Shown here piece after piece: positions 23,251 to 46,800 of a stretch of 64,000 bases of DNA (position 1 is its first letter; each line of letters opens with the position of its first letter). Origin of the DNA: Lepidurus packardi (lineage: Eukaryota > Arthropoda > Branchiopoda > Notostraca > Triopsidae); the NCBI GenBank assembly GCA_023053545.1, contig JAKZAN010000006.1, forward strand, positions 1,865,001 through 1,929,000, written 5' to 3'. The notes below the pieces were generated by a model. That model was not told where the DNA came from. It saw only the letters and a program-made list of their open reading frames with translations, and ran no database searches. The position numbers were made by a program, and so were the translations under genes.

Positions 23251-23496
23251 AGAGTTAGGACTGCGCTCTATTTTGACATTTTTAAGATTGTTGTATTACA
23301 TGATCAAACAAGAAATAAAATCACTGCAATTATGTACTCGGGTCTTTTTTCACCGCTTGTCGAACTCAGTCTTTTCTTGCATCACATCTTCTAGCAACTG
23401 CTTCGTCAAGATACAGCCAAGACTAAGGTTCTTAACTGTCGCACTTTTCAGCTCAAGTAAAAATTACCTATCCTTCCAAGAGAAAATTTACAACGC

Positions 23497-24149
23497 TTAA
23501 GCCTTGGCCTTGGCTTGCAAGGGTAGATACAACTTAAACTCTGCGGGTAATTCATCTTCGGAATAAAGGCGGTCAGAGAAGTACACCCTTCGTACTCTGC
23601 AATTCGCATGAATTTGAACCCGAAGAGTTTCCACGTAATTCGTGCCATACGCTCTGCGTGTGAAATCAGCTAAGTTAAACTGAATCTGGTTCCAGCCTTC
23701 GTCAAGACGCATAGGCATGGTGCAGATGAAAGGCTTCACACGAGTAGTGGACTGGTAGTTGCTCGCTCTGAATCTTCTTCTCACGTTCTTATCATCCAAA
23801 ATCTAACCACAAAAAGGAAGACAATCGACAAACCTAAGCATATCACCCATGTTTTTCTGGTAGTTTTCAATACCTGAACTTCAAATGTGAAGTATTTTTT
23901 GAGGTTCTTTACAATCATAACCAGATACGGTAATTTAATTCCCAGTGTCTTTTTCGGGTCAGCAGGGCAGGTAACGTAAGTAGTGCTCACATTAGTTCCC
24001 ACAATTTCCAGAACCAGGGATTGAATATCATTATCTGTAATTCTCTTGATGTGCCCATTCCTCACTTTCTTGTCCCAAATCTGTAACGGTTTGCTGCCTA
24101 TGCTGTACAGAATCGACAAGAAGCCACTCTGGAAAGTGTTTTTGAACAT
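23497..24149 (-). CDS. CFAP20: CFAP20 (BUG22/GTL3), copy A
   Basis: A conserved ciliary and centriolar protein. In other animals it is a microtubule inner protein of cilia that affects tubulin modification and ciliary beating. Two exons (23874-24149 and 23497-23802) join to give 193 residues, the same length as human CFAP20. The sequence is nearly identical to the vertebrate protein throughout, for example [20 protein letters not shown] at the start and [18 protein letters not shown] later. The 71-nt intron sits in the FEVQ|ILDDKN region. The predicted protein is identical to that of copy B. It lies directly downstream of the broken gene X copy and upstream of STT3A. The upstream flank matches copy B, so its promoter was probably duplicated too and it may be expressed. 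Confidence 0.95.
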
Positions 24150-24776
24150 CTTCTAACTATAGTAAAAACAAAGCAACTCACAAATTCTCAACCTGTACGC
24201 AAAGAAAGGGAGAAAATATTAACAGGTTATATCTACACGGGATACCTGACGCTACAAAGTTGGCAGCGTCATACCACACAAGTCCATAAATTTTACTCAC
24301 TAGGAATTTTGGCTGGAATGTAAATGTGACTTGCAGATTTGTTTCGCGTTTGATTCACTTTTGACATAAGTAAGATCTCAGGTCGCTAAGGCAAACAAGA
24401 AATCATCGCCAACTGTAGCGTGCATGTTATGTTTCTATTTGTTTAATCCATGCAGGTTTTCGCCATGGCAACGCGTCAGAGCTCAAGTGAAACGACGCGC
24501 GCGTAAGTGAAATGAAATAACGGTTGTCTAAAGGTAAAACGCATTCCTCCTTATTCTATCGTTCGATTTTTCAACCAGGCTTCTGTACTATTTTTGAAAC
24601 TGATGATTTATATAATAACTGCAAAAATGTATTTCTGATTTTTTCCATACTGGCTTTTTTTTTTTACTTTTTCTTAACATAACGCAACGGGGGAAAGTAA
24701 AAAAAGCAACCAAAAGAACTTTACGATCACTTATTTTCCAATCGGAGCAGTGAGGCATCAGGTACTACGATTCAAA
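24150..24776. promoter_or_regulatory. CFAP20 copy A upstream region
   Basis: A 627-bp gap between the chimeric gene X copy and CFAP20 copy A on the same strand. It is nearly identical to 33194-33819. It includes a T-run near 24655-24670 and a CGCGCGCG-like patch near 24495. It should hold the CFAP20 promoter and leader. Exact sites cannot be set from sequence alone. Confidence 0.4.
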
Positions 24777-25797
24777 CTAGTCTTTGTGTTTGCGAGGACG
24801 TTTTGATGGCGTAGGACACGCTGTTTCAACACCTGGTTCTGTGACACAAAGACAATTTAAGCCGCTTGTTCTAAATCAATAATGGGAATTACCTGTAACA
24901 TGCTTGTTAGTTAAGGCACCATGACCGTTAGATCTACATAATAAGATCTAACGGTTATAAAGGGTCATCAATATTTAAAGATATACGTACTTCTTGGCTT
25001 TGCGAGAGCTTGACTTGGAGGGCGGAACCGCCACCAGAATTTTATCGCTTTCATCACTACTTGTAGCTATACCAGTATATAATTCAGCAGCCCTGGTCCT
25101 AGTTGACTGACTTACGCGGCACAACTTTTCATGTTCCTAAGAGAAACATTATGTAAACCAAAAATCATCCATGCCATGGAAAACATACATCTTTTTCCAG
25201 AAAATCACTTGCAATGAACGTCTTTTGGCAATACGTGCAGCCGATTAGAGAATCCATGGTTCTTTTCCTGGTCACTTCAGGCAAACTGGGACTTCGAAGA
25301 AATTCAGCCCCATTCACGACCTCACAGCGTACGGCGAAAGAAGTACTCTGAGAAGATCCGGTATTATGCTTTGGTTTAAGTCTACGAATTGCGTCATACA
25401 CCATGGGAACTGGGGTGTGTTTCTTGTCAGTGAATTCCCTTGTGATATCCAAAGATACAGTACTTCGTGTATGAGTACCCGAACTAGAAGGCGAAGCTGC
25501 AGTACGCTTATTGGTTCCAAGTGACAATACAGCCACGACTTTAATTTCTTCCTCACAGTCATCCCGTCCCCGGCCTCTACCAACTCTTCGCCCGCACCTG
25601 TTTCTCCGTTTTGTACTCGTTGTTGTTCCCCTGGTCGATTTGCTAGCCCTTCCTTTGCTTCCGGCTGGAAGATGTTTGGAAGCTGTCTTTCTCTGTATCA
25701 ATTCGTCAGGTTCGAAGTCCTCGTCGCTGTCAACATAAGAGGGTTTGGCCAAAATACTAGCTCTGGTGTTAGTTGGAGCTTCACTTTTTGTAGCCAT
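24777..25797 (-). pseudogene. Chimeric gene X copy A: 3' half fused to STT3A exon 6 sequence
   Basis: Exons 4-6 and the last part of exon 3 of gene X are repeated here (24991-25136, 24893-24933, 24777-24838 and 25189-25790). All splice sites are kept and there are no frameshifts relative to the intact copy. At 25790-25794 the exon 3 copy joins sequence from STT3A exon 6. The join is in frame: the Ala-rich helix end ...AAAAM of STT3A runs into ATKSEAPT of gene X. The first in-frame ATG is that STT3A methionine (25795-25797), giving a possible 285-residue product with the C2HC finger. It has lost the N-terminal half of gene X and the normal promoter. Probably a non-functional by-product, but an open chimeric frame. 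Confidence 0.75.
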
Positions 25798-26621
25798 TGC
25801 TGCAGCAGCTATAGTGCCAATTGCCAGGATTAGACTTCGGAAAAGAATGTCAAACTGTTCTTTGGTCAAACGACTCCGGACATAATCCACAAACGCGTGC
25901 AACTGGCATAAGCCGAACACTCCAAACGCCTAAATAAATATAGTTTAATTACTCACGTTTTTTTTTTAAAGACGACTCGTTTACAAGCATGTGTTCTGAG
26001 CTTTGCACAGGCTGGAACCCAACAAATGAAATTTGCATGGACAATAATGTTCTCAAAGTGTAAAGGCAACTGTATGCAACATAGATACGATGGGAAAATC
26101 GGCCGGTCAACATGAGAGCCACCACGTGTAACGGAATCAAGTTAATCAGAAACCCGTAGCCGCCCCAAGACGAAACCTAAAATAAAATATTTACAACTAT
26201 ACTGTATTAGTTAGTTCATTTACCATGTAAAAGTAAGCCAAGGCGCACATCGTACTCCAAAGCAAACTACCGGTTTTTACGGCTTTGATCCAAAAGTAGT
26301 ATGTCAGCAACATACAGAAGATAGCAATACCTGCAAAAGAATAAGTGTTAATATCGTAACAACTTTGTTGTAGGCAATACTACCTTCATTACCGTAGGAG
26401 CCAGCCACAGATCTAGAAATGTAGCGAAGAACGATGGCGATCATGGCAGCTGCTACCAAACCAGCGCCAGTGTCCTTGAGCTCTTTGGTCAACAAGAATG
26501 TGACGATGGTGGTAAAACTAGAAAAATAATGGCGCTAAGAAAACGCAGACGTTACGGACATCAATCGAAATGTGAAGCAGTGCATGATGTGGTAAAGTGC
26601 GGCCGACGTGACCATGAGACC
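25794..26621 (-). pseudogene. STT3A fragment (part of exon 3 to part of exon 6)
   Basis: Matches 21523-22347 of intact STT3A, introns included, with many more differences than the CFAP20 duplication. In the exon 3 part a one-base loss near 26578-26582 shifts the frame and leads to a stop. A one-base gain follows near the exon 3 T-run (about 26521-26526). Conserved residues are changed, for example VPGY has become VLRY. The fragment ends on one side exactly at the LTR of the BEL element and on the other at the gene X join. It cannot encode a working transferase. Confidence 0.9.
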
Positions 26622-26867: not shown

Positions 26868-29800
26868 TCAAGGATAGTATTTGTCATTTTCACCAAGACA
26901 TCCTGCCGCCCCGGCCAAAGTCTCGCCTCGTTCATCCATGCATAAACGTATTTTGTCACGGGCTTTGATAGCTGCTAAACGAGGCAGACGTCTTGTTGAA
27001 GAAACGGATGGCTGTGGCATCAGTTGTTCTCGCGAGGAAGTTGGATCGTAGGTCCCTTTGTTTACTTCCAGTGGATATATTTTACAAATATTACGATTCG
27101 CAACACCATTTTCCATCAGAATGTTCGCGGTGCGAATATACCCGTCAGGGCTGAGCTTTAACTCTAAAACTTTGGCCATCTTCCATTTAATTCTTTTTTC
27201 TTCCGAGTGAACATGTACAATGTCACCGACGTTTATGACGTTTTGAAAAGGTTTCTGACAATGTTGATGAAACTCTCGAAGGCTGGTTAGATATTCGTTT
27301 CTGAAACGATTCCACACATGAGTAAGAGTTTCTCGACGATATCGAATAAGGCGAGAAAAGCTTTCAGGGTCATCAGAAAAGGTCACATCGTGAGGATCAC
27401 TAAGGGGTAGGGCTGGAAATAATTTAGTTCTTTTTCCATAAAGAAGTAGGGAAGGAGTAATTGCAGATTCGTCACTTAATGACGAGGAGACATATGTCAG
27501 TGGGCGGTCATTGAGGATGGATTCTACTTCAGTGATTATAGTTTCCAGCTCTTCAGGGAATAACTTTCGACGCCCCAAAACTTTCTTTAAGGTATTCTTC
27601 GTTAAACCGATTAAGCGTTCCCACATGCCCCCAAACCAAGGAGCTCTTTTAGGAATAAACCTCCATTCTACGCGTGAGTCGATTAAGTATTTACAAAGCT
27701 CAGGGTCGTCAGCAAGAGAAGTCAGGTCTTTCGCTACACTTTCGAAAGTACGTGCGTTATCCGAAAGCATAAGAGAGGGCAGGGTTCTGCGACTAACGAA
27801 ACGTCGAAATCCTAAAAGGAAACTAGAAGAGTCTAGGCTCGGAAGCAGTTCGAGATGAACGGCACGGGAGACTGAGCAGGTGAAAAGACATATGTATCGT
27901 TTTCCAGATTCCTTATTGGGAAGTTTAACGAAAAGAGGACCAGCAAAATCGACTCCGGTGACATGAAACGCGTCGAAAGGCTGGAGGTGATTCTTAGGCA
28001 GAGGAGGTGGAGGAGGGTAAGGGTATGGGTTTCCCATAACTTTTTTGCAGGTTACACAGCCACTAATAACTCTTCTGGCGAGCTGACGAGCGGCGGGTAT
28101 CCAATACGACTTGCGAAGGTGACTGACCGTTGCATTGACACCGGAATGTAAGGTGGTCGTATGTGCCTTCATCATTAAGAGTTTAGCAGCGAGCGAACCT
28201 TTGGGAATGAGAATAGGGCATATGGTCTCATAAGTAAGGGGGGCATTAGACAGACGTCCTTTGCAGCGGATTATCAGTTTGTTGTCGAGGAATAAGTCGC
28301 GTTGGGAAATAAGAGGAGTGACTCCTTTCCTATTCGCATCTTTTAGTTGGTCGATCTCCTTTCGATATGACGCATTTTGAATCTCGCGGATTACGGATCG
28401 TTCCGACGACAACAGTTCGGGGAGGGACAGGGCGTTAGAGATCTTCATAATTCGGTTTAAGGAGTTTCGTAAGTTTGTAAGAAACCGGAAGACGTAAGCT
28501 ATAACTCGGATAGCTTTTTCCCAAGAACTGCATCGTGACAAGGTAGCGAGCAGCACAGAACGCTCCATAGGGAGAGGGGATGTAGAAGTGATAATACAGG
28601 TAACCCCGCTAGTTTCTTCGGCGGGCCATTCGTGAGGTGAAATCAGCCAGTCTGGACCAAATTTCCACATCTTATTTTTCAGAAGGTTAGACGCTGCTAC
28701 GCCTCTGGTTAACAGATCCGCTGGGTTTTCTTGGGAGATGCAATATCGTAAAGAAACGGCATGCTGTGATCGAACAGAGTTGATGGTGTTTACTCGATTG
28801 AAAATGAAGGTATCTTTTGAATGATTATTGAGTACCCAATACAAGGCAATTTTGGAGTCTGTCCAAAGAAAGGTACGTACGTTAGCCTTTGGGGGGAAAC
28901 TTAATTCGCCGATGATATAGATTAATAGACGACTGGCGATGAGTAAAGCCAAAAGCTCTAAACGTGCTAGAGAAATACATTTCAAGGGAGCAACTCGGTT
29001 CCTAGACATCACTAAGAGGGAGGAGTTGTCGTTTACCAGATAAGCCACCGCACCGTAAGCAGAGGGACTGGCGTCGGCAAAAACATGTATTGAGACTGTT
29101 GAGTTACGGGTTTTGCCAAGGTTTCTAGGGATGGTAAACTCACGGACTAGTTTCAAATCCGAAGTTAGTCTGTTCCACACGGCTTCCAAATTAGCGGGGA
29201 GAGGAGTATCCCAATCTAGCTTCTCTTTCCAAAGGGTTTGTAGGAGGATTTTTCCACGTATCGTTACGGGAGCAAGAAATCCCAAAGGGTCATAGAGGCT
29301 TGCGAAAGTCTGCAAAATGTTCCGTTTAGTACAGGTAGGATTTTGATTAAAACTTGAGGCAATTTTAAAGTAATCCAAATGAGGATTCCATAGTAACCCA
29401 AGAGCTTTCTGTTCGGTAGTACTTGCAGATTTCTCCGTTAGAGGTAAGCGTTCAAGCAGAGTGGGACAGTTGGTTATCCAATTCCGTAAATTCATCGAAG
29501 CTTCGTTGAGGACTGAGCGAGAAATCTCGTAGAAGGAGAGAGTTTCTTCACAAGAAGGGAAAGAGGCTAAGACGTTGTCAACATATAGACTATTAACGAG
29601 TTCCTGTGTTTCCTGACACGGTCTGCTGTGTAGGTGGTGATCAAGAACCGCGTTCAAAATAAACGGGGAAGAGGTAGCCCCAAAAATTACCACACGAAAA
29701 CGAAAGGTGCGCATGGGGGAATTGGGGTTGTGCAGTTCTTTGGGCCACATGAAGGAGAGGAAATTTCGATCGGATTCGTCTAATTCAATTTGGTGGAAGG

Positions 29801-32237
29801 CTTTTTCGATGTCAGCCATTACGGCGAATTCTGAAAGACGAAAACGTAGTAGAATTCCACACAGGTCTTTCTGTAAGGGAGGGCCTGCTTCGAGGCAATC
29901 GTTGAGACTCGGTTGCTCAGGGGAGGCTTGGCAAGAGCAGTCGTACACAATTCGAACTGGTGTGGAAGAGGAACTTTTAACAACAGGACGATGGGGCAGA
30001 AAGTGTGATTGAACCATCTGATCTGCGGAAAGGTAAGTTTCTTCAATAATACCTTTATTCAATTGTTCGTTTATTATCGAGTCATAGGTTTCCAGAAGCT
30101 TAGTATTGCTAGTTCTTGATAAACGGCGAACAAGACTCTTGGTGCGTTGGAGGGCAGGCTCAAAATTGTTTGGAAGGGTGGGGTGCTCCCTTTTCCATGG
30201 TAGTTTCACGGAGTATCGCCCTTCTCTAAAATGAATCGAGGTTTTCCGATATTCTTCTACATAGGGAACGTCTTCGTGGGACTTACCGGAAATCCCTATA
30301 GTTTCTAAGTCCCAAAAGCGTTCTAATGGGTCGGGAGAAGGAGGTGAATCTAGGATCAACAGATTGGTTGTGTTATTAGGGTCTTCAAGAAAAGGCAGGG
30401 GTCCTGACAAGAGATATCCGAGCTTAGATTTTAACGCGCAAGGTCCGGGACCACGGATGATTTCGTCTTCAACAAAGGACCAATAGTATTCCGATCCAAT
30501 GAGTACGTCTACTTCAAATTTCCCATGTGCATGCGGATGCGCTAATTGCAAGTTAGTTAAATAGGAAAGAGGAGTGAGAGATGCTTGAGTATGAGTTGTT
30601 ACTGGAGCACAAATACTAGGCAAAACATGAGCTTTAAGAAAAATAAGTTCTCCAGAGATTGTCTTAATGAAAAGTTCAACTATACCAAGTGAAACGGATC
30701 GGTTAGCTCCAGCGGTGTTAAGGTTAATTCTTTGGGGGATAATCATGCAATTTAAACTATTAGCTATACTCTCTGTTATTAAGGAATGTTGAGCTCCGGG
30801 ATCAAAGAGAATGTTAACTTGAGCTGTTCGTCCATTTGCTAATGCTTCGGCTTTAGCAGTTTGTAACAACGCGAGTTTGGGAGACTGTGAACCGACAGAT
30901 GTGAATCCACATTTGCGGCATTTTCCTTTAGAGGGGCAGTTAATTACTCGGTGTTGCCCAGATGAAGAGAGACAGTTGAAACATAGTTTCTTTTCGCGAA
31001 CTACTGCGGTACGTTCTTCGGGGGTTTTGTAACGCGGACAATTTGTCGGATAGTGGGTTTCTGTACAAAAAGCGCATTTAGGGGTTTTCTGTTTCTGATC
31101 TTGGGAAATAAGAAGAGCGGAAGCACTGCTATTTTCGTCTGGGGAGAGAGCTTGCTCCTTAGAGGTACCTTGTTTCTCAGATTCGTTGGATTGTTTTTTC
31201 ACAGGGACAGTAACTTCGTGCTCGTCGTTGATTTCTCGCATCTGTAGTTCACGAAATAGGGCTTCACGGAAGTTGTCAAGTGTCCAAATAGTTATATTAT
31301 TTTCTCGACGTAAAGCTCGCCGGGTGTCATTTGGCAGTTTGTCGAGTAGATTGCATACCAGAAGATCACCGTAAGAGTCGGTATTCTTACCAAGAATCTC
31401 CAGGCTACGAATGTAGGATTGGATAGTATCGTAAAAGAGACGAAACGTGGACACATCGTGTGAGGGGCTGGGAATGGTATGAAAAGCACGTAGAAACGTA
31501 GCGATTATTTTGTCCTCTTGCCCATAACGTTCTTTGAGCAAAGAGACAGCTAGCGGGTAGCTATCATTGGAGATAGTTAAGCCTTCAATTACGCGAGCGG
31601 GTTCAGGTCCAAGAAGCGAGTATAGATAGTTAAACTTACTAATTGGAGTTAGGGTAGGGTGCGCGTCTATTTCGCTTGAGAAAGAGTCTCAGAATCGTTT
31701 CCAGTGCATTAGATTTCCATCAAATGTAATGAGAGAGAGTTTTTGTAGTTTACTTGACATCTGATGGGGAAGAGGTGAAAACGGCGCTTGTGCATTTGTC
31801 AAGGATGGGTTTGGAGCATAAGCTCCAATGCTAGCGGGGGGAGAGATCGCTTGAGTCACCGCAGAGGGGTTAGGTACGGAGTCCGTTAGAGACGCCACTT
31901 CAAGACGAAGGTCTAGGCAGGCATCTCTGGTCCGAGCTTCGTGATCCTCATGGTCTTGAACGAGGGATGCTATTTCGTCATCCTGGGTGATTTCTAGCAG
32001 CTGCAGGTAAATCTGTTTGAGTCCAAGGAGTTTGTTTTCGATTTGCTGATGGTGATCTTGAAGCAGTAAAAGTTGTTTCCGAGGCACGTCCACATTCTGG
32101 ATAAGATCAGGTGTCTTATTTAACATTTTAGTCAGGGAACCACGTTGCCCGGTACGCTGTGCGATAAGGAGATTCTTGTTGGAGGTTTCACCAGTGCGTT
32201 GAGTAGTAGGAGGGTTTCTGGATGATTCGGAAGCCAT
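26868..32237 (-). pseudogene. BEL/Pao gag-pol polyprotein frame with one internal stop
   Basis: A frame of 1790 codons from ATG 32237, broken only by an in-frame TGA at 31689-31691. The gag region sits N-terminally. Two zinc-knuckle-like segments follow (CAFCTETHYPTNC and CFNC...HRVINC). The protease motif reads DPGAQ (about 30795-30803), where DSG or DTG is usual. The reverse transcriptase has MADIEKAFHQ, and its catalytic box reads YVDN (29574-29585), where YVDD is usual. The RNase H region has HVFADASPSAYGA. The integrase has an HHCC-type finger and the expected Asp/Asp/Glu blocks (VTGVDFAG, LSDNARTF, WFGGMWERL). A DUF5641-like tail closes it. The stop and the two active-site changes suggest it cannot move on its own. 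Confidence 0.93.
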
Positions 32238-32256
32238 CCTGGTCACGGCACCAAAA

Positions 32257-32294
32257 TGTCACGAATAAATGTCCTGCGTTGTGTTGTAGAAGAG
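32257..32294 (-). repeat. Residual 38 bp of the BEL 5' LTR
   Basis: Matches 26622-26659 with two mismatches, then switches without a gap to the CFAP20 downstream flank shared with 23251 onward. The rest of the 5' LTR is missing. Confidence 0.85.
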
Positions 32295-32537
32295 AGTTAG
32301 GACTGCGCTCTATTTTGACATTTTTAAGATTGTTGTATTACATGATCAAACAAGAAATAAAATCACTGCAATTATGTACTCGGGTCTTTTTTCACCGCTT
32401 GTCGAACTCAGTCTTTTCTTGCATCACATCTTCTAGCAACTGCTTCGTCAAGATACAGCCAAGACTAAGTTCTTAACTGTCGCACTTTTCAGCTCAAGTA
32501 AAACTTACCTATCCTTCCAAGAGAAAATGTACAACGC

Positions 32538-33193
32538 TTAAGCCTTGGCCTTGGCTTGCAAGGGTAGATACAACTTAAACTCTGCGGGTAATTCATCTTC
32601 GGAATAAAGGCGGTCAGAGAAGTACACCCTTCGTACTCTACAATTCGCATGAATTTGAACCCGAAGAGTTTCCACGTAATTCGTGCCATACGCTCTGCGT
32701 GTGAAATCAGCTAAGTTAAACTGAATCTGGTTCCAGCCTTCGTCAAGACGCATAGGCATGGTGCAGATGAAAGGCTTCACACGAGTAGTGGACTGGTAAT
32801 TGCTCGCTCTGAATCTTCTTCTCACGTTCTTATCATCCAAAATCTAACCACAAAAAGGAAGACAATCGACAATAAACCTAAGCACATCACCCTTGTTTGT
32901 CTAGTAGTTTTCAATACCTGAACTTCAAATGTGAAGTATTTTTTGAGGTTCTTTACAATCATAACCAGATACGGTAATTTAATTCCCAGTGTCTTTTTCG
33001 GGTCAGCAGGGCAGGTAACGTAAGTAGTGCTCACATTAGTTCCCACAATTTCCAGAACCAGGGATTGAATATCATTATCTGTAATTCTCTTGATGTGCCC
33101 ATTCCTCACTTTCTTGTCCCAAATCTGTAACGGTTTGCTGCCTATGCTGTACAAAATCGACAAGAAGCCACTCTGGAAAGTGTTTTTGAACAT
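32538..33193 (-). CDS. CFAP20: CFAP20 (BUG22/GTL3), copy B
   Basis: Second complete CFAP20 gene. Exons 32918-33193 and 32538-32843 encode 193 residues identical to copy A. The intron is 74 nt, three longer than in copy A, and differs from it at several bases, while the coding exons differ only silently. It lies 626 bp downstream of the intact gene X on the same strand, which is probably the ancestral arrangement. Downstream, instead of STT3A, the sequence runs straight into the truncated BEL LTR, so its natural 3' flank is cut about 245 bp after the stop. Function is as for copy A: ciliary doublet and centriole protein. Confidence 0.95.
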
Positions 33194-33819
33194 CTTCTAA
33201 CTATAGTAAAAACAAAGCAACTCACAAATTCTCAACCTGTACGCAAAGAAAGAGAAAAAATATTAACAGGTTATATCTACACGGGATACCTGACGCTACA
33301 AAGTTGGCAGCGTCATACCACACAAGTCCATAAATTTTACTCACTAGGAATTTTGGCTGGAATGTAAATGTGACTTGCAGATTTGTTTCGCGTTTGATTC
33401 ACTTTTGACATAAGTAAGATCTCAGGTCGCTAAGGCAAACAAGAAATCATCGCCAACTGTAGCGTGCATGTTATGTTTCTATTTGTTTAATCCATGCAGG
33501 TTTTCGCAATGGCAACGCGCCAGAGCTCAAGTGAAACGACGCGCGCGTAAGTGAAATGAAATAACGGTTGTCTAAAGGTAAAACGCATTCCTCCTTATTC
33601 TATCGTTCGATTTTTCAACCAGGCTTCTGTACTATTTTTGAAACTGATGATTTATATAATAACTGCAAAAATGTATTTCTGATTTTTTCCATACTGGCTT
33701 TTTTTTTTACTTTTTCTTAACATAACGCAACGGGGGAAAGTAAAAAAAGCAACCAAAAGAACTTTACGATCACTTATTTTCCAAACGGAGCAGTGAGGCA
33801 TCAGGTACTACGATTCAAA

Positions 33820-36160
33820 CTAGTCTTTGTGCTTGCGAGGACGTTTTGATGGCGTAGGACACGCTGTTTCAACACCTGGTTCTGTGACACAAAGACAATT
33901 TAAGCCGCTTGTTCCAAATCAATAATGGGAATTACCTGTAACATGCTTGTTAGTTAAGGCACCATGACCGTTAGATCTACATAATAAGATCTAACGGTTT
34001 ATAAAGGGTCATCAATACTTAAAGATATACGTACTTCTTGGCTTTGCGAGAGCTTGACTTGGAGGGCGGAACCGCCACCAGAATTTTATCGCTTTCATCA
34101 CTACTTGTAGCTATACCAGTACATAATTCAGCAGCCCTGGTCCTAGTTGACTGACTTACGCGGCACAACTTTTCGTGTTCCTAAGAGAAACATTATGTAA
34201 ACCAAAAATCATCCATGCCATGGAAAACATACATCTTTTTCCAGAAAATCACTTGCAATGAACGTCTTTTGGCAATACGTGCAGCCGATTAGAGAATCCA
34301 TGGTTCTTTTCCTGATCACTTCAGGCAAATTGGGACTTCGAAGAAATTCAGCCCCATTCACGCCCTCACAGCGTACGGCGAAAGAAGTACTCTGAGAAGA
34401 TCCGGTATTATGCTTTGGTTTAAGTCTACGAATTGCGCCATACACCATGGGAACTGGGGTGTGTTTCTTGTCAGTGAATTCCCTTGTGATATCCAAAGAT
34501 ACAGTACTTCGTGTATGAGTACCCGAACTAGGAGGCGAAGCTGCAGTACGCTTATTGGTTCCAAGTGACAATACATCCACGACTTTAATTTCTTCCTCAC
34601 AGTCATCCCGTCCCCGGCCTCTACCAACTCTTCCCCCGCACCTGTTTCTCCGTTTTGTACTCGTTGTTGTTCCCCTGGTCGACTTGCTAGCCCTTCCTTT
34701 GCTTCCGGCTGGAAGATGTTTGGAAGCTGTCTTTCCCTGTATCAATTCATCAGGTTCGAAGTCCTCGTCGCTGTCAACATAAGAGGGTTTGGCCAAAGTA
34801 CTAGCTCTGGTGTTAGTTGGAGCTTCACTTTTTGCTTCTGCCTTGACTTTACCTGGTTTATAATTGACTATCAATTCTTCATCCGAAGAAGCCGCAACAT
34901 AGAAACCACAAGAATTAGCTTGCCAGGACTTTTCTGCATCAAGATCTTGGGGATCATTCTTTCCGTCTTTCAATTGATCATCTTGGAGTGTAGTTTTACG
35001 TGAAGAAGATATCTTGTTTCTTTTGCTGCTGGAGAGTACGCGTGTGACGTACTTTGGTTGGTTAATTATCAAATCCACTTGCTCATCCAAAGTTAATGTT
35101 TCAGGATCTGGTGGAACATGTTTGGTGTTTAAAATCGTGTTTAATTTCAGGATTTCTTGCTGCACAATGGGATCTTCCAAAGTCTCAGGCCTGCAGAATT
35201 TAGGAAGATCTTTTACTTTATAGTTCTGCCGCTCTTCTGGACTGAAGAAGACAAGTGAATCTTCATTCCCAGTTAGGTTCATATTTTGAAGTTTCTGGCA
35301 AAACTTTTGCAGGTGATTCTTCACTTCTAAGGCGGTAGCTATAACGGGTGCATCAGTAATAGGCATATTATCTTTTGGAAGACTATATGTCGTCTCGGCA
35401 TTCGGAACAGTCTGAACGTCCTGATCTGAGTCTTCAATTTCCACCAACAGCTTTGAAGTTTTGAAAAGCGGATGGGATTCGGTTTCTAGGTCATCATCTC
35501 TCTCTAAATCAGACATACGACGATTAGGGTCAGGAGTGTCTTCCAAAGGAGGAGGACTAGATGAACGCTTAACTGGGGTTGCTTTGACTGTACACACATT
35601 CGCTTCACGCTCAGAGTGTGGATCGGACACAATGGCTACAACTTCTACGTCTCTTATTGACTAGATAAAGATATAAAAAAACAATAAAAATCTATCAACA
35701 AATTATAATTAAGTATTTATTTACAACTTTTTGGGGATGGTCCGTTGCACACTTCTGACTATCTGAACCATTAGCAACATCACCAACCGTGGAGCAGAGA
35801 TTACTTGGATCAGAACTTGAATGGTCAGGTGGATCCACTTCTTCCATTTGCAAGCGGCCCTGATGAGCACTAGCTTTACTATTCGAAACAGACATAGACG
35901 CGACTAGGGCTTCATAGTAATCACGTTTCTCTTGCAGGGTCATATCATCATCGAAAAGTCCCCATTCTAGTAAAAAAAAGAAGTATATAAAAAAACTTTA
36001 ATTTTTCTTCTTGTTTAGTTTTTAATCAGAAAATATAGAACAGACAAATTAAATTATTACCTTTCAAGAGCGCGTCATACTTTGCATTTTCTCTTTCTTC
36101 GTCACCGAGATTCGGCCGGTTACTATTCGCAGTCTTCCTTCCAACAGGCAACTTGCGCAT
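33820..36160 (-). CDS. Gene X: uncharacterised 672-residue protein with C-terminal C2HC zinc finger
   Basis: Not recognised. Six exons join in phase: 36061-36160, 35725-35966, 34233-35660, 34035-34180, 33936-33976, 33820-33881. The N-terminal 60 residues are charged (start MRKLPVGRKT, then EWGLFDDDMTLQEKRDYYEA) and look conserved in type. The middle is acidic and Ser/Pro-rich with SDEDFEPDE and an Arg/Gly patch (GGRVGRGRGR). Near the C-terminus C574-x2-C577-x14-H592-x3-C596 forms a C2HC finger resembling ubiquitin-binding (UBZ-like) or DNA-repair fingers. The finger spans the exon 3/4 junction. The tail is Lys/Arg-rich (SKRPRKHK), a likely nuclear localisation signal. A nuclear, chromatin or repair role is a guess. 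The 3' half is duplicated at 24.8-25.8 kb. Confidence 0.8.
33967..33998. repeat. 12-bp inverted repeat over the gene X intron 4 acceptor
   Basis: Arms ACCGTTAGATCT (33967-33978) and AGATCTAACGGT (33987-33998) are perfect complements around an 8-nt loop. In the transcript the hairpin would span the 3' splice site of intron 4, with the AG in or beside the loop. It is kept at 24924-24955 in copy A. Confidence 0.85.
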
Positions 36161-36368
36161 TTTCTAAACTTAAGTACGACGGAAACCTACACATGTACTG
36201 TACGTTGGAAGAATTTACATGTTCTTGAAACGCATGCAAAAGCCACACAGCAAACCTTATTGGAGGGATGGATGGAAGTAAATAAAGAAGCGCCACCTTA
36301 CAGAGACCACGACAGACTTGAAAATGGTATCGTAATGATTGCAACTTCGTAAAATACATCGCAAAATG

Positions 36369-36374
36369 TTTATT
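36369..36374 (-). terminator. Polyadenylation signal of the peptide gene
   Basis: AATAAA on the minus strand, about 195 bp after the stop of the peptide precursor and about 210 bp before the gene X start codon. It fits the compact spacing of this cluster. Confidence 0.5.
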
Positions 36375-36566
36375 ACATTATTCTGTTGTCTTTGCATTGT
36401 CCCACTAATTTTATAATGAAAACTCAATCAATGAAACTATATATATGGCTGCTAAACTCTTGAATATAACTAAAATATAAGGAACAATACTGAATACACA
36501 ACGCAGCAGACAAAGCAAAATCAAATGTCAAGAGTTGGAAATATAAGGACGTTAAGGTAAAACACT

Positions 36567-36984
36567 TTATCGTCTTTCTCTGGGTAACAAAAATGGATAA
36601 TTCGGTTGCGGGGAAGCAAAATTAAAACTAGTGTCTTCGGGTACGATTTCTCCATGCAGCTGTCCGTCAGGTCGTTCTAGTTGATGGAGACGAGATTCCG
36701 TGGGGTGCAACTTGTTGCCGTGTTCCCATAACCAATGCACTCTAATAAGATAATTTGAGGATAGTGAAATTCTAGAATTTGAATTGAATGACTTACCCAT
36801 GTGTAGGACTACTCCGCTTGGAAGTAAACAGCGTAAAACTGCAACGACAACCACCCACCATGCCATTGAAGCCGGTAGCCCGACAAAACATGCGACAATC
36901 GAATCGCTTTCCCTGTGCCGCGACGGCAGAGAAAAATAATACCAGTGTGCAGCAAGCCAATACGACGGTACCAATTTTTGCCAT
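36567..36984 (-). CDS. Secreted cysteine-rich peptide precursor (neuropeptide-like)
   Basis: Two exons (36797-36984 and 36567-36741) join in phase to encode 120 residues. Residues 1-23 are a clear signal peptide (MAKIGTVVLACCTLVLFFSA...). Just after it comes GKR, then a 28-residue segment starting FDCRMFCRATGF, then KR. That segment is thus bounded by dibasic sites and has four cysteines in the pattern C-x3-C-x11-C-x1-C, enough for two disulfides. The remaining 60 residues are His/Pro-rich without cysteine and resemble a precursor spacer. A leader intron acceptor (TTTTCAG) sits directly before the ATG. The layout is that of a neuropeptide or hormone precursor. I do not recognise the family. 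An antimicrobial peptide is an alternative, although the RCR-type cysteine spacing is unlike arthropod defensins. Confidence 0.75.
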
Positions 36985-39693
36985 CTGAAAATGTTAAAAA
37001 GTAAAATAAAAAATAATTGTCTCGAAAAGCTGAACTATCACAAGCTGTGTACTTCTCTCGACGTGGTCAATCCCTTTGTAATGACCTGCATCCCAGGATT
37101 TAAGCTTCCTTAAATCTAAATTGTTATTGATTTCTGACTACAACTTTTAATGCTGTCCATCTCGGTTCACCGCAGCTTGTATTATCCTTATCAATTCAAC
37201 CTCGATTGAGGTAGTGAATGCGAAATATGAAGCAAGTGAAAGATTGCCTTTTCATGGACGTAAAAAGTAATTTTTTAGACGAAAAAAGGAAAAAAATGAA
37301 CAGGCTTTTACAACAAGAAGCCCCTAGCGTAATATATATTTAAAAAAATGAGTTGCCTATTTTGCCTTCGTCTCATCCTGTACCCTAACGAAGTTGTGGC
37401 AAACATGTAGTAGCTAAAGCTAGTTAAGACTAGCTTACATGTTCTTCTCCCTACCACCTTGCTACTCCTTCACTTTTTAAACCATGTCCATGAACGCTAA
37501 TAACGAAAACAAAAATTCTTGTATCTCTGGGATAAAATACAGTATGTCAATAATAAGTCTAAACATAAACATACAACCGACCTAACGAGGATTTTTAAAT
37601 CCCCTTATTACATTAGGCCATCGAATGGCGCTATAGGGAACCAAGAGAACAACATCTACAATATACGTACCTCAAAGATCGTGGAAACAATAAAGCTGAA
37701 GCTTGAAACTCGCGGTTTCGCAAGGAAAACCTGAACAATAGGACGAAGGAGATACAAAGGGCTATTCAAAATGGATCGCAGCCCTGACCACGGTTTTGTG
37801 TCCATAATTTTTTGTATCTTGAAAGATGAAGTATAATTAACGCATTAAGGGCAATTTTTGTTTTCACAGTTCGGTGTATGATTGCCAGAATGCGGACTTA
37901 ACTTTTAGTAAGCAGAAAATACATGAAAACGTAGATTGGTTGGGTTTCTCAGGGACATTCCTCAAAAATCGCTTCGCAAAAGAAAATGATCGCAATCGCA
38001 AAGATAATCGCAATCCTTAATTAGAATATTCGAATCGAGAATCTAATCTCATCGAACAAATAAGTCGCTTAAATAGTGAGTAACTTCTCTAATACGAAGG
38101 AGCAATTCTTGTTCTCTTCAACCACACATTATGCCTTTATTCTTTCCTCACTCGATAGAAATGCACCGAAGCGACAACTCGTGTTCATAGGCTATAATAG
38201 GTGCCTAGAAATTGTACTGCCCCTCCAAATTTATATGATTTTTTCTACGAAAAGAAACCATTAGCTCGACAACACTGAGGCTTGTTATGCCAAGTTGGTA
38301 AGAGGTCTACTAACGAAGCTTGTAAAATAAAATACGCATATGTTTACCACCTCAACCGTCTTTAAGCGGAATTGTTTACTGCTTACGATAATGGTCACCT
38401 GTGTAGCCTACGCACCTTAATATATAATTAGGCCGGACAATGTGCCACCGAGGCATATCAAGTAACCTTTATGGAAGGAACTCTAATAACAAGACAACCT
38501 TATACAACTTAATAGCAAAAACAAAAGTGTGCCAGCGTTGGGGGTGGGAAAGTGAAGAGAATTGTACTTACGTTACGGTGATGGACAGGAAATCGTGCAA
38601 TCTCTTGCGGAGAAGAAAACACACTGACTGAAATGCTGTAGTTTCCGAAAAAATAACGTATGTCTTTCAAATACGAGCTGTGACCTACGACAAGCAAAGG
38701 TTAGCTTATATTAAAGCTTCGAGGATGGCGAATGCACCTTTTTATACAGGCGGCTTGGCCTTTGCTTCGTTGCTCCCGTTTTGCAGGTGAGATGCGCCGC
38801 GCCTCGGAAAGCTGCAAAACTTACCTTGGTCTTCATTCTTTTCCTCCACGTATGCACAACAACGCTAAGAAAAGCAAACTAAAAAAAAAAGAAAAGAAGC
38901 TGAGGACCAGAGCAGGCACGAATAAATGTACCGGGTAAAAAACACAATTAAGTATGCAAAACAGGCTAGGGGTGCACGGACTTAATCGGATAACAAGCTC
39001 TGCTTGTCATTGAACCACGCAAAGCCCCTTGGGCGAACAAAATAGTCGAATTAGAAAAGAAAATGCACCACAAGATAAAAATAACAGAAGGTGGTAGCAA
39101 TGTTTTCTTTCAAAACACCCGCAGAAGTGTGCGACGCGCTTTCGTGTATACCGTCATGAAAAAAAAAATAACTCCACTCTTAAACAGTGGATGAAAACGT
39201 ATCGAGTGCAATACAATTCACAAATCTTTGCACGAGTTAGAATGTCAGCATCATAGTTTGCTTATAAATAAATACAACGTAATTAACACCTTCTCTAAAT
39301 GTCAGACTTGTCTATTTTATTTGCTTTTCCACCTGTTCGAGTCAACGTTCTATTGTACATAATAGAGAGAGTTCCAGTTTAGCGCCACGTTGAATGAAAA
39401 CTTCATATCCTTTTTATATGGGGTAGTAAATGATTGCGTCTACATTAGTTTTAACGTTGCAAGGAAACCCCTGCTGATAAACCTTCCAAGACACCACACA
39501 CAAAGGCAGCAGAGAGCGTAATAGGGAAATTCTTGTCCGCGGGACTTCACGCTGCTCCATTCCTTCGTCGCTGCTATTAGTCATGTCCAGTCAGCTGATA
39601 TTAAGACGTCCGTTCAAGTTGGGCTCTACATCGTATTCCGTTCTCAGACTCGCAGCTAGCTGGACCTTATCCTAAACGTGTAGTGTACGCATC
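36985..39693. other. Intergenic region between the peptide gene and sulfiredoxin
   Basis: The peptide gene and sulfiredoxin are divergent, so both promoters should lie here. The sequence is AT-rich with short unconnected frames only. The first 150 bp or so hold the peptide gene leader intron. I see no further gene. Confidence 0.5.
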
Positions 39694-40155
39694 ATGAGTG
39701 ATTTTTCCAACTGTACTATGACCAGTATCCACGCCGGTACGATTACAGAAATTCATGATGTACCTATGGAAGCTATTATTCGTCCATTTCCTCCCGACTT
39801 AAATCACGAAAAAGTGAACAGCCTTACAGAAACACTGAAAGTAAGTATTTGGCTTATACAACCAAAAGTTCGATAGCAATTTTTATATCGCGCCTTTTGA
39901 AAGAAAACATCGAACCTTAATCTTTACTAATGTTTATTATTATAGAATCCGGAAACTCGCCACTTGGTACCGCCTGTTGACATTTTGTGGATCAGAGGAA
40001 GTCAAGGTGGTAACTATTATTATTCTTTTGGTGGTTGCCATCGTTACGCCGCCCACCAAAGACTTGGACTGCCTAGTATTCGGGCTAAACTTGTCGATTC
40101 TTCCGTCCACGATTTAAGAGTGTATCTTGGCGCTTCGACGCCTGATTTGAAGTAA
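39694..40155 (+). CDS. SRXN1: Sulfiredoxin
   Basis: Sulfiredoxin uses ATP to reduce over-oxidised (sulfinic) cysteine in 2-Cys peroxiredoxins, restoring them after oxidative stress. Two exons (39694-39840 and 39946-40155) encode 118 residues, slightly shorter than the human enzyme. The signature [10 protein letters not shown] is present; its Cys is the catalytic residue and the Gly-Cys-His-Arg stretch binds ATP. The rest matches too: [12 protein letters not shown] at the start, [20 protein letters not shown] before the active site, and [13 protein letters not shown] at the end. The first ATG of the frame is used. Intron 39841-39945 is a standard GT-AG. The gene converges on ATF6. No mitochondrial-type N-terminal extension is seen, so a cytosolic location is likely. 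Confidence 0.96.
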
Positions 40156-40825
40156 CTTATTGTAGTATAAAAGCCAACTTGCCTTGCAAAGGGACTTACG
40201 ATTTCACTTTCCATTGTAATGCCATTGAAAAGGGACCCACTTTCACTATCGAACAATAAGTGTCAAGTTTTATTGAAATACTAGTTCTGAAATAAACTTG
40301 ATAATTTTTTTTATTTATTACGAAACGGTCCAAACTCCGCCACCAACCTTTTATGTGCAAAATCCAATCCGTAGTAAAAAACACCACAATAAACCAAACC
40401 GCCTCAAGAGCTTCACTCGTGCTTTAATTTTTTTTCGCGTATCAGATTACTTCGCTTTTTTAACATATTTTATACCTAAAACGGAAAATGCTCTTTTTCT
40501 GACTTCAAAATACAAAATGCACGCTTTTGTCTCACTTTATCCGAAAGAGGATAAATAAAACATTTTTTAAATTCTGAATAGAGATCAACATAAAAATAAA
40601 CAAAAAAGAGCTCGTTGAAGCTTGACTTTTTGCTTTCTTTTGCTATGGTAGAGTTAAAGCCTCGGATGTCCGTTTGCCATTATCTGACCACAATGGCAAC
40701 CGGTCAAATTCATTTGTATCGTCAATGGTTAACGTCAATAAAGACGAATTATCTCATACTGCCGTGTCGTCGACAATGTTCAAAGAAAAATTGCATAAAG
40801 AATTTATAGATATCGAATATTAAGC
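40156..40825. other. Shared 3' flank of sulfiredoxin and ATF6
   Basis: A gap of 670 bp between two convergent stop codons. The plus-strand AATAAA at 40291-40296 fits sulfiredoxin. The nearest minus-strand AATAAA signals after the ATF6 stop are at 40310-40319 and 40269-40274. The two 3' UTRs therefore probably overlap by tens of bases. Confidence 0.5.
40291..40296 (+). terminator. Polyadenylation signal, sulfiredoxin
   Basis: AATAAA about 136 bp after the sulfiredoxin stop, followed by a T-rich stretch. Confidence 0.6.
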
Positions 40826-43800
40826 TTAATGAGAGTTGCCACTCGTTGGGTAGAAGCGGTTCAATGACTCCTGTTGGTTCGTTAACTGAGTGAAAGGTCC
40901 ATGGCTATGACTGTCGACTGGGAAACTCTCCTTTTCTACTTTACGATGCTGCGTGATATTCTCGGTATCACTCCTTCGTGGCACTTCATTCCGAACGTTC
41001 TGTATTGGTTTTATCTTCTTGAATTGCTTATTCCTACATAAATAATTAAATAATTAGTAAAAGTCATTACAATGCAGGTAAAACTAGAAAGAAGGATTGA
41101 CCTACTTTAAGTTTAAAGTATTAGGAATCGGTTTCTCTGCAACTGGTTCAGTTTTTTTTGCAGCACTTGCAGTAGTCCTGAAAGACGCGTTGCCTGTCTG
41201 GCTGCCGTGAGGTGGCAGTGAGTTTTCTGCAACGTGAAGCAGCTTGGTGTTGATAACTTCACAGTCGATTTGCATCATGGCCACATGGTTGGGAGGCGGC
41301 TGCATCGATTCTGCAACCCAACATTGCATTCGAAAAGTATAAATGTCCTAAATTAGCTAATTTGCAAATTTCCAAAGAGAATGCAAATGACTTACCGTTA
41401 AGAGGCAACGCCGGTAGAACTAAGGACATCCTGGGTCGCAAGGTATTGTTGTGCTCTGTAGCAGGCAACAATAAGTGATCGCCAGAAAAGGAAACCACAT
41501 AAAAAGTGTCATCTCGGCGCTGAATGGCTTCAAAGAAGGCAGAGAATAAGTAATGATTTGGGGCCGGATCCAACACTTGCAATTCATGTTTAGCAGGGAA
41601 TGTCCTATGGGTTACAAAAAATGCAATCAATACAGTTGAGCGTCCTTAATTAATATCTAGATCTAAAAAAGTAAAAACTTACTTGGAATTTTTCGGTTCT
41701 GTTAACAAATAACTTCTAAAAGCGGCAGGTGCTTCTTTACGCACGTGGCCCAATGCATTATGAGGAATTCGCTGATCTAGCATCCGTTTAAATTCCATAG
41801 GCTTTTTGGCTTGCTGGTGTTGCGGATTGGCATTGGCAGTTTCAGAAGGGCGCTCCAGACGAAACCAATCTCGGAGCTCGCTATCAATGCGCAGAGATTC
41901 GGTTTGGTTGATGTACATAGGACACATGGGGTGCAGTTTAGTGCGGTTCACTTGCGTCCCATTCCAAGTTGGAGCCAATATGTCGCCATCTAATAAAGCA
42001 TCTTCCGAGGCCCATAACAATGATCTGGAGTGATGGCGTAACTGGGGAATTGGCGAACTCACGGAAGGGTTTCCGGATAGCGATGAACTGGATGAGAGAA
42101 ACCCTCTATAGCCATAATAATAATTATACAAAAACCGTATTAAGGTACCAAAAATCAAACACGTGTCACAAGCGTGTTATGAAGTAAAATACAGTATATG
42201 CCGCTTATTGTGAGAAGTTTTGTCAAGTGAATATTGATTCTATTAAGCGGAGATTCTAATAACCGAAAATCGGAAATATGCATAGAATGTTACGATAATC
42301 AGCGCGTGAAGCGAACTGGCTTGTTTAAACCAAAGAAAACAGGGCATCGTTTCCTTTTTGGGCACTTTCCGATTCGTTTCTTGGATTCTGGATTCACTAG
42401 ACCCATTATTGTTAATTTCCTAACGATTTTTCAGCAATTTTCATAGAGACGATTGAGGAATTCCTAATTTAACGCCCGCTTCCCTTTGTGGCAAATCTTT
42501 TAAATTTAACTTGTCATAAGTTTCAATAAACTGCAAGTTCTCTTTTACATTTTAATCGACTCTTTTCTTGTTCGTCGCCATTCTTAAATAACCACACGTC
42601 TAAAACCAAACTAACACTGCACCTTTGAAGCCTACTCCTATGCTTAGGTAGGGTTACCAACACGATATCCCTTCTAATTTTTCCAGTCAATTAAAGGAAC
42701 TGGTCATTCAATTGAATAACCTGCTCATTTAGTTGACTATGGACTTTAAAAGGGATTTCTCCCTAAGCGTAGTGGAAGGCTGGAATTGACAGGATTGGTC
42801 AAAACAACGTATTAGCGAAGTTATTGGTCAATATGCAAAGTCCATCTAGTAATTACTACTGTGGTTTCGTTACTTTACATGTGAAGATTCTTTTGAAATT
42901 GATTCTAATATGCGATAGTGTGGTTCTAATAACCAATTGAACTGCTGTGAATTTTATCGTTTCAAATCGGTCCTTTAAAATTTGATTCCATAAAGCGGCT
43001 GATTCTAATAATCAGTGATTACAACAAGCGGCATCTACTGTAGTTGAAGTATAGAATAACCAGCAATTATCTTGAAACTCAGGCAGAACACAAGTTGAAT
43101 CGCCGTTAACCCAACGTAGTAGAACTTACCCTAAAGAGGCCAGGTTTAAAGACAGCAACAGCATGACGGCTAAAAGCGCTGTTGTTTTCTTAGTGGTAGA
43201 GCTTTTGCTCTGCTCTTTGCTGGGAGGCTGGCCTTCCCAAACTGACAATCTTTCCCTCAATGCCGCATTCTCTGCCTTTAACTGCGCGTTCTCGTCTGCC
43301 AAGTCACCCAATTGACATTCCAACAATGACAAGTATTCCTTTTTGCGCTTACGGGACATGCAGGCGGACTCGCGATTTTTTATCATACGCTGCTGTCGTT
43401 TCAGGCTCCTCAACTAAATGAATCCAAAAATTCTTATTACTATTAGAATTTCTTTAGAGCTTCCACCGTGCTAACTCCCAACTAACTTTAAACTTACATC
43501 GGATTCTGAAAGACCAGGGAACTTGGAATGCGACGTCATTATCGCAGGGGGAGGAGGTGGTGAACTCACAACAACTTTTGCTGTTGCTTTGGCTGCTAAA
43601 GGCGCTGGGTTAACCCGCGCTGTAGCCTTGGCAGGTGTGGTGATTTGCAATAAACCTTGCTGCGTTAAGGATGCAAATTCTTCCGCAGATAGAAGGATTG
43701 GCTGGCTCCCGCTTTTGGTGGTGACAGTTTTATTCTTCAGGATCATAGGATTACTGGCAGTAGTTGTGGTGGTCCCGTGTAACTGAGCTTGCGAAATTAT

Positions 43801-46800
43801 ACGTATGGCGATAGGTTTTGCGTTCGCCGTCTGGGTCAAGGGTGCATTTGCTGATGCAGCAGACTGAGGAACCGAAGTCACAGGTAGGGATGGAAGTCTA
43901 GGTTGCGTGGGCGCAGCTTGCAATGCAAAAGCACCTTGCGGGAGAGTCACTCCTGTAATACAATTATTGTTTGAAAAAGATCTGCTCCAAAGTTACTGAC
44001 TGATTAGCTTACGTTTGTTAACGCTGATGATTCTTATGTTCGGGTTCAAATATTTCGTTTTGTTGGCTGGCAAAATTGGCTGTGGTGAACAAGGTGGACT
44101 GCCACTTGACAATTGCGGAGGGGTCACGGGAGGCGTTTCCAGCTATTAAATAAATTAGGTATTTAGACGAGCGAAAGACAAACAACTTTTATGGAATTAT
44201 TTTATAATGATTGAAATATAGTTATGGATCATACGAATTATGTTTATTATATTACGTTATTTGTTCGTTCCCAAAAGAGACGCAGATAAGTGTAAAAAAG
44301 AAGAAGAAAGTACCAGGAAGGCTTACATTGGGTTTCATTTCTACGATTGTACTATGCCAGGACTCAAGGGAAATTTGCGGTGAAGGCGGTTGGGATGTGG
44401 GTTCCATTTTGATAGCATCGTGTGGGAATCCTAAGAATACTCAAAATAATTACATTCTTTGAAAGGGTAAAATTAAGTTGAGTCAAGAGCATACCCAAAT
44501 TGGTCTCGCAATTGACGTTCAGAAAAGCGTTCAAGTCAATACTGGGCAAGTCCATGTTCCCATAAATGTCGTCCAATGCAGACTCTAAATGCATTTCAGA
44601 CACCACGCCCATATCTACAGAGCTTGGCGAGTTTGGGAGCTCGTTTTCCAAGCTTATGTCGCTTTCTATAGAATGAGGCGATAGGGAAAATTCCCCGCTA
44701 TCGTCCAGCGGCATGGGCATCTAAAGAAAAAAAATAACATTAATTCCATGTCCTTGTAAACATAAATAGAGTTCTTTACTTCCAAATCACGATGCAAGTG
44801 CTGTAAACAATCCGTATCCATCTCGGAGTCAACATCCACGTCTACACAAGTAAAGGAATCCATTTAAGTTATTGACGTTGTGATTCCCTTTTCCAGGACT
44901 GCCCTCAATTCAAGGAAATGTATGTAGGGTTCAACACGTTGGTTGGAACACAACCCTACTGTTACTGTAAATGCGTATAGTACAAGAACATGGATCCGTG
45001 TACGAATACACTTTATTGCTAGGGTATGGATTATTCATATAACGCCCGCGCTTAGGACTGGGGTAGTTCGATTCCTAGTACAGACTTGTTGGGGCTGCTC
45101 CAAGGAGAGGCAAGGCAAGCGAACAACCAAGACAGACCATCTTTACTTCTTTTGTTTTAGAAAGGGTATAAAAAGAGAAAAAAAACGCTGAATGATATTA
45201 ATTTACTGAACTAGAAACGGTCAAGATTTATACTCCAAAAACCGGCGTTAATTATTTGATCAACTAAAGTATTCTAGAGTACGACTTCATGCATCACGCT
45301 TATGTTGCCTCACAACATAAAAGCCCGACCGGATATCCTCCTTACGTTACCTGGATTCTCCTCGGAATAACAACCAACCCAGCCATACTTTTCCCTTTCT
45401 TGAATAAACCACGGCCGAATTATTCCTCTGCAGCTTTCACTGCTCAAAAATTATATGTAAGGAGCCCCCTCAATGACCATATTCAAATTTTTTCTTCCAT
45501 AGCTATTCTAAAAAGTCGAATGCAAACTGGAAATAGGATTCTCCGAACCAGCCGTTAGGGAGGCGTAGAAAGGGGCGTTTGCGGGAGAATTGAGTCCACT
45601 TGTTTGCGGTTCCAATATAATTTTCAAATGAAAATCGCATAGTGGAGGACCTGTATACCAAACAAGTTTTCCTGCTTCCTGTACCCTGACTAAAGTAAAG
45701 AAGGGGTCAAAAAACCCGAACTGGTGCCGCAAGCCTTGCTATACTCGGCACGGGGGTTTTCAAGCCAGTCAAGGTGAAACAACCAACGCCCCTTTTCGGA
45801 AATTCTTTATTTGGTACACAGCATCTTCAACGCAATTTAATTAACACAACATATGGTTTAGAAGGTCTGCAAATCAGTCAGCTGGTTTTCCATATGATGA
45901 TTTAATGGCAAACGAAAGTGTTCACTATGCATGCAGTAAACCAACATTCAAGGACAACTTTCTGCTTCACCTTGGCCTTGGGAAGGCAGCCAGGTGCTCT
46001 CATGAGAAAAGTTGTGCCTACTGGCCTGCTCCTGAATCCCCAAAAACCTGCATTCACGTTGAGTCTTTAACCTGCCATTCCTGAGTGCGTAAGCCCATGG
46101 TTTCCCTTTCTCTCCAAAAAACCAAAGACCTTGAAAACAGACACTTATTTTTCAGGACGCTACACAATATTTTGCCGAGTCGTATTACAAAGTCTCAGAC
46201 TGCAGCTTTTTTTCCTTGTGCTTTCCGCTTCTGAAATGTTGGCACGCAAAATAAGGATCGTAAAACTGAAGGATAGCTATTTTATCAGGTAATTCATGAG
46301 AAGCTTGTGGGTGAAAGGTTATAAGATAACGAACGTACGGACGCTACGAGGGTTTTACGTGCTTTTCCCAACCAACTCGGTAATGACGGCATGTAGAAAA
46401 GGGGAGGAAGAGAGACTCGAAAACACATGGCCGGTCATGTGTGTTAGTGGAGATGGAAGTAAGAGAGGAACTAAAAGAGATAGGGGAGCAAACTCTCGGA
46501 CAAAACAACATATAAGGAACTCGAATGAAACTGTCAAGCTATCTGCTTACATGCAAGGCTTGGTTCAGTTTTCGGGCCTGCTGGCTTAAGCTTTTAGAAT
46601 TGATAGCAAAAGTTATTCATTTAAGCTCTCATACATGTTTTGAAATAGTTGCTAAATAGGAAATTATAGCAGTCGACCTATACATGGGAAAGTCCAGAGC
46701 GTCTAGAGAATGAAAAACATGTACTATGTTTAACGGCGTAAAAAGGCAACAATTCAGACGGTTTGCGGCGTATATTCCACTTGATATTTCCAGCACCCTC

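Follow-up and report, generated by a model that had tools for sequence, protein, structure and literature searches.

A probable four-cysteine precursor gene in Lepidurus packardi that may encode a secreted peptide hormone or neuropeptide

The window analysed here is a whole stretch of 64,000 nucleotides from the notostracan Lepidurus packardi (assembly GCA_023053545.1, contig JAKZAN010000006.1, positions 1,865,001 to 1,929,000 of the forward strand), and all coordinates below count from its first letter. On the minus strand, at 36984-36567, spliced translation gives a precursor of 120 amino acids, MAKIGTVVLACCTLVLFFSAVAAQ-GKR-FDCRMFCRATGFNGMVGGCRCSFTLFTS-KR-SSPTHGVHWLWEHGNKLHPTESRLHQLERPDGQLHGEIVPEDTSFNFASPQPNYPFLLPRERR, in which a core with four cysteines stands between two dibasic sites. 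Judged from the sequence, this four-cysteine precursor is probably the product of a real gene. We give about an even chance to the reading that the gene encodes a secreted peptide hormone or neuropeptide precursor, which would be exported, cut at both KR sites, closed by two disulfides and active on a receptor. An initial annotation of this DNA had proposed such a precursor; the architecture it described is upheld by the translation, by the rarity of the pattern, by the splice acceptor before the start codon and by the codon frame, while the hormone identity is drawn from that architecture only. The parts of the gene are as follows.

36797..36984, minus strand: first coding exon, MAKI...KRSSPTH, 62 codons and two nucleotides of the next codon (reading frame and translation)
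36916..36984, minus strand: signal sequence, residues 1-23, MAKIGTVVLACCTLVLFFSAVAA (hydropathy; presumed cleavage point)
36904..36912, minus strand: GKR, the upstream dibasic site, residues 25-27 (translation)
36820..36903, minus strand: 28-residue core FDCRMFCRATGFNGMVGGCRCSFTLFTS, C-x3-C-x11-C-x-C (translation; helix-strand-strand in an AlphaFold2 model)
36814..36819, minus strand: KR, the downstream dibasic site, residues 56-57 (translation)
36742..36796, minus strand: predicted intron of 55 nucleotides, GTAAGT...TTATTAG (splice-site scores; putative splicing)
36567..36741, minus strand: second coding exon, the cysteine-free tail up to the TAA stop codon (reading frame and translation)
36369..36374, minus strand: AATAAA polyadenylation signal about 190 nucleotides past the stop codon (sequence reading)

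Every element that had been claimed for the spliced product (signal peptide, GKR, core, KR and cysteine-free spacer) is found in the translation and the hydropathy profile, and both the length of the core, 28 residues, and its spacing, C-x3-C-x11-C-x1-C, were given correctly. The signal peptide, judged by hydropathy only, reaches a 12-residue mean of 2.98 and has small residues at −3 and −1. The core is cationic and its four cysteines include a CRC; dibasic sites flank it on both sides, GKR before and KR after, as in a hormone precursor. Behind the second KR there is a tail of 63 residues, cysteine-free and acidic, with a net charge of −4 when its last two arginines are set aside. The gene also has the polyadenylation signal of its own that had been described, AATAAA at 36374-36369. 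Without splicing, the cysteine frame runs into a TAA stop codon right after residue 63.

Such an arrangement is rare in the window. A scan for a signal-like start followed by [KR]R, four cysteines and a second [KR]R returns one open reading frame (ORF) in the 64 kb, and the same rule finds at least one ORF in only 1 of 60 first-order Markov versions of the window. When the demand for KR is dropped and the hydropathy cut is made slightly stricter, the peptide ORF is still the sole one listed in the window; both rules were devised after the ORF had been seen.

Codon usage of the genes in the window was used to score the reading frames. In exon 1 the cysteine frame scores +4.1, a value that 22% of random windows reach too. 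The rival sense frame, which belongs to an unspliced ORF of 155 codons at 36570-37034, scores −13.0, and only 0.5% of random windows are as low or lower. As a control, the true frame came first among three in 73 of 89 host segments; the STT3 membrane protein did poorly (8 of 17). Exon 2 scores 3.6 against 0.0 and −0.1 for the other sense frames; it gives no choice between the spliced and the unspliced models because both read the same frame there. The possibility that there is no gene here, or that the product is a different one, namely the unspliced 155-codon protein or a chance ORF, could draw on the frame being open through the intron and on its own hydrophobic start, MAWWVVVVAVL... We nevertheless consider it very improbable in view of the low exon 1 score, and it is the cysteine frame, not the unspliced one, whose ATG follows on a strong splice acceptor.

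Splice sites were scored with generic weights, not trained on the host species. On this scale the intron donor at 36796 is within the top 0.65% of 7,207 GTs and the acceptor at 36742 is middling, within the top 3.5% of 7,791 AGs. For this donor the acceptor is the third by score, yet it gives the longest protein among the eight best splice choices. The core is whole in four of these eight, all of them with donor 36796, and is cut into in the other four, which use the weaker donor 36858. At the other end of exon 1, an acceptor as strong as the one abutting the start codon, or stronger, stands right before only 4 of the 1,989 ATGs in the window. On sequence grounds this makes it likely that a leader exon lies upstream, and two candidate ends can be proposed for it.

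36985..37010, minus strand: polypyrimidine tract and CAG acceptor abutting the ATG, TTTTACTTTTTAACATTTTCAG, within the top 0.6% of 7,791 AGs
38738..38746, minus strand: candidate TATA box TATAAAAAG, with a putative ATG-free leader at 38720-38572 and donor at 38571
38825..38836, minus strand: alternative candidate leader-exon end ATGAAGACCAAG, followed by GTAAGT, in frame, which would add MKTK to the N-terminus

The donor at 38571 is middling, only within the top 1.6%. The donor at 38824, behind ATGAAGACCAAG, is the best on the minus strand in 36990-39200 and falls within the top 0.03%.

The cysteine pattern had been described as one that could not be placed in a known arthropod family, and it finds no match in Pfam or among PDB sequences. 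Specifically, the Pfam search gave no family for the 120-residue precursor (E up to 1) or the 28-residue core (E up to 10), and PDB sequences, phage records, viral contigs and prokaryote genomes gave no match. In the animal's own genome of 108.6 Mb one copy was found, the gene itself, and no further one (E up to 0.001). Since the search for relatives covered microbial, phage, viral and solved-structure sets and the own genome, the absence of relatives says little. Motif fragments returned nothing relevant from the 5.39 million papers of the open-licence literature, a search that left out figures and supplements, the usual place of sequences; a firefly midgut sequence, in the part of the paper available, has GGCRCT in common with the core (PMC11209139). 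No Rfam family was found within 34000-40000 and no tandem repeat within 34000-41000, and the transcript shows nothing notable in its RNA structure (z 1.56). The gene may be an ordinary one, for a signalling peptide that relatives already have under the label of a hypothetical protein or that is known from literature beyond that searched. This is possible, though we doubt it: the narrow range of the collections, made up of open-licence text and of sequences from microbes, phages, viruses and solved structures, speaks for it, and the lack of any relevant paper from the motif fragments in the open-licence text outside figures and supplements speaks against it. The chances that we assign to a hormone and to a defence peptide overlap with this possibility.

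If the gene encodes a hormone precursor, a prohormone convertase would cut both KR sites and a carboxypeptidase would trim the C-terminal KR, releasing FDCRMFCRATGFNGMVGGCRCSFTLFTS. Its C-terminus would be free and non-amidated, as there is no glycine ahead of the second KR. Should the first KR be left uncut, the product would be a 32-mer starting with glutamine. The calculated MH+ would be 3110.302 for the 28-mer with two disulfides and 3579.578 for the 32-mer if its glutamine is free. AlphaFold2 folds the bare core as helix, strand, strand; the helix carries CxxxC and the last strand CxC. The model points, with modest confidence, to a minimal two-disulfide CSalpha/beta-like arrangement. In such a peptide two disulfides, C1-C3 and C2-C4, would pin the short helix (CxxxC) to the beta hairpin (CxC), and the resulting minimal ligand would act on a cell-surface receptor, by analogy with trissin most likely a G-protein-coupled receptor (GPCR).

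The order CxxxC, then CxC is a mark of the CSalpha/beta motif, and the core could also be read as a defence or antimicrobial peptide, a CSalpha/beta molecule like a pared-down defensin, released at KR and directed at microbial membranes or cell-wall precursors. The hormone precursor has points against it. One concerns the codon test: the antisense frames of exon 1 score 2.5 and 3.9, close to the 4.0 that the cysteine frame has in the same, earlier version of the score, so that the test disfavours the rival sense frame without alone proving the cysteine frame. Another is that the core is cationic and has the defensin-like cysteine order, to which the predicted alpha-beta-beta fold can be added; because of these properties the defence peptide keeps some standing, although we regard it as rather unlikely. 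It has four cysteines, not six in three disulfides, neither precursor nor core matches Defensin_2 in Pfam, and just one copy was found in the own genome. A search of that genome for Defensin_2 gave no match, which is uninformative as none was obtained in 14 control genomes either. In defensins the mature part usually closes the precursor. Here a second KR follows the core, and then the long acidic tail, and it is this second KR with its 63-residue tail that favours a hormone precursor over a defensin or another antimicrobial peptide.

A new family of peptide hormones is a rarity. According to the accessible portion of PMC4888303, duplication of known genes seems to be the source of every new neuropeptide gene in decapods and insects, with hyrg as a possible exception. 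That the precursor stands for an undescribed animal peptide-hormone family, with a minimal two-disulfide CSalpha/beta fold, a scaffold familiar elsewhere from defensins, as the receptor ligand, is a tentative proposal that we consider improbable rather than expected. If it is true, the existence of such a family next to trissin would hint at a recruitment of antimicrobial-type scaffolds to neuropeptide roles. A two-disulfide ligand whose cysteine pattern is unlisted would give receptor screening a short target that can be made synthetically, and it would also test the link of defensin-like scaffolds to neuropeptides.

Regarding the neighbourhood, the next gene downstream lies on the same strand with a possible start near 36163, as far as ORFs only can tell. 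The window contains direct duplications, 23251-25790 with 32293-34834 (98.6% identical) and 21520-22347 with 25791-26621 (97.4% identical), and the duplicated blocks cover a segment of a CFA20-domain gene, the terminal part of the gene that follows the peptide gene downstream, and a part of an STT3 gene. Between the duplicated blocks there is a transposable element at 26871-32258, one piece of which matches DUF1759 above the curated cut-off; aspartyl protease families stay just under their cut-offs, and we take the combination to be typical of BEL/Pao elements. Genes such as STT3, CFA20, bZIP and diacylglycerol kinase mark the DNA as eukaryotic and are in keeping with an animal. Further features are a bZIP transcription factor gene, presumably ATF6-like, and a diacylglycerol kinase gene.

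41100-44860, minus strand: bZIP transcription factor gene, with the leucine zipper exon at 43126-43413
55126-57631, plus strand: diacylglycerol kinase gene with Ras-association and accessory domains

Three known systems can be compared with the precursor. The core resembles CSalpha/beta peptides, i.e. arthropod defensins and their relatives, in having CxxxC ahead of CxC and a predicted helix, strand and strand, and differs from them in having at most two disulfides where they have three, in the second KR and long tail behind the core, and in the lack of a Pfam match. Hyrg, a putative crustacean neuropeptide, is likewise a short protein that is secreted and has been put forward as a lineage-specific hormone, but as described in the available text (PMC4888303) it is without classical convertase sites, whereas the four-cysteine precursor has two.

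The nearest named likeness found, one that the initial annotation does not bring up, is in cysteine spacing with trissin (CG14871 in Drosophila, with the receptor CG34381), which in the sources as accessible to us is a cysteine-rich peptide placed behind a signal sequence and followed by a basic site and a spacer. In the sections at hand, published trissins have the spacing C2-x3-C3-x11-C5-C6, six cysteines and a conserved CGTxxFRxCCFN (PMC8449533; PMC7179676; PMC7212414), and their precursors are 88-117 amino acids long, usually with RKR behind the peptide and then a tail (PMC7179676). The C-x3-C-x11-C spacing is common to trissin and the core; in trissin it goes with six cysteines and a vicinal CC pair, in the core with four cysteines and CRC, and the CGTxxFRxCCFN signature is gone from the core. 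By counting, 0.1% of random placements of four cysteines in 28 residues have x3, x11 and x0 or x1, for a pattern that was chosen post hoc. This spacing prompted us to consider homology with trissin, which received no support from the residues: with the cysteines set aside, 69-91% of core shuffles do as well as the core itself against three trissins over the 17-residue C-x3-C-x11-C segment, and a profile comparison (hhalign) gives a probability of 0.1. The core is not filed as a trissin because there is no residue similarity beyond the cysteines. Trissin queries against the own genome had no match, and neither did the positive control DH31, which makes searches of that genome with short peptides uninformative.

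The core might still be a strongly diverged trissin that has lost one disulfide (trissin C1 and C4) and acts on the trissin receptor. The shared spacing is consistent with this, and in the descriptions seen both peptides come right behind the signal peptide and are closed by a basic site. The number of cysteines in trissins may vary, since Raalin of the honey bee is given as trissin-like with only five (PMC3510462, in part). The Daphnia pulex peptidome, in the text available, is reported without trissin (PMC4770511), a point of weight if the host genome is close to Daphnia. A Daphnia magna GAPDH primer gave no match in the analysis at up to 3 mismatches, although it may span an intron. Set against the shuffles, the profile comparison and the missing signature, these arguments leave a diverged trissin improbable. 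Trissin is a GPCR ligand for which an antimicrobial role was once considered too, as the accessible part of PMC3510462 tells, and by analogy the four-cysteine core may work like it, as a disulfide-bridged ligand of a GPCR.
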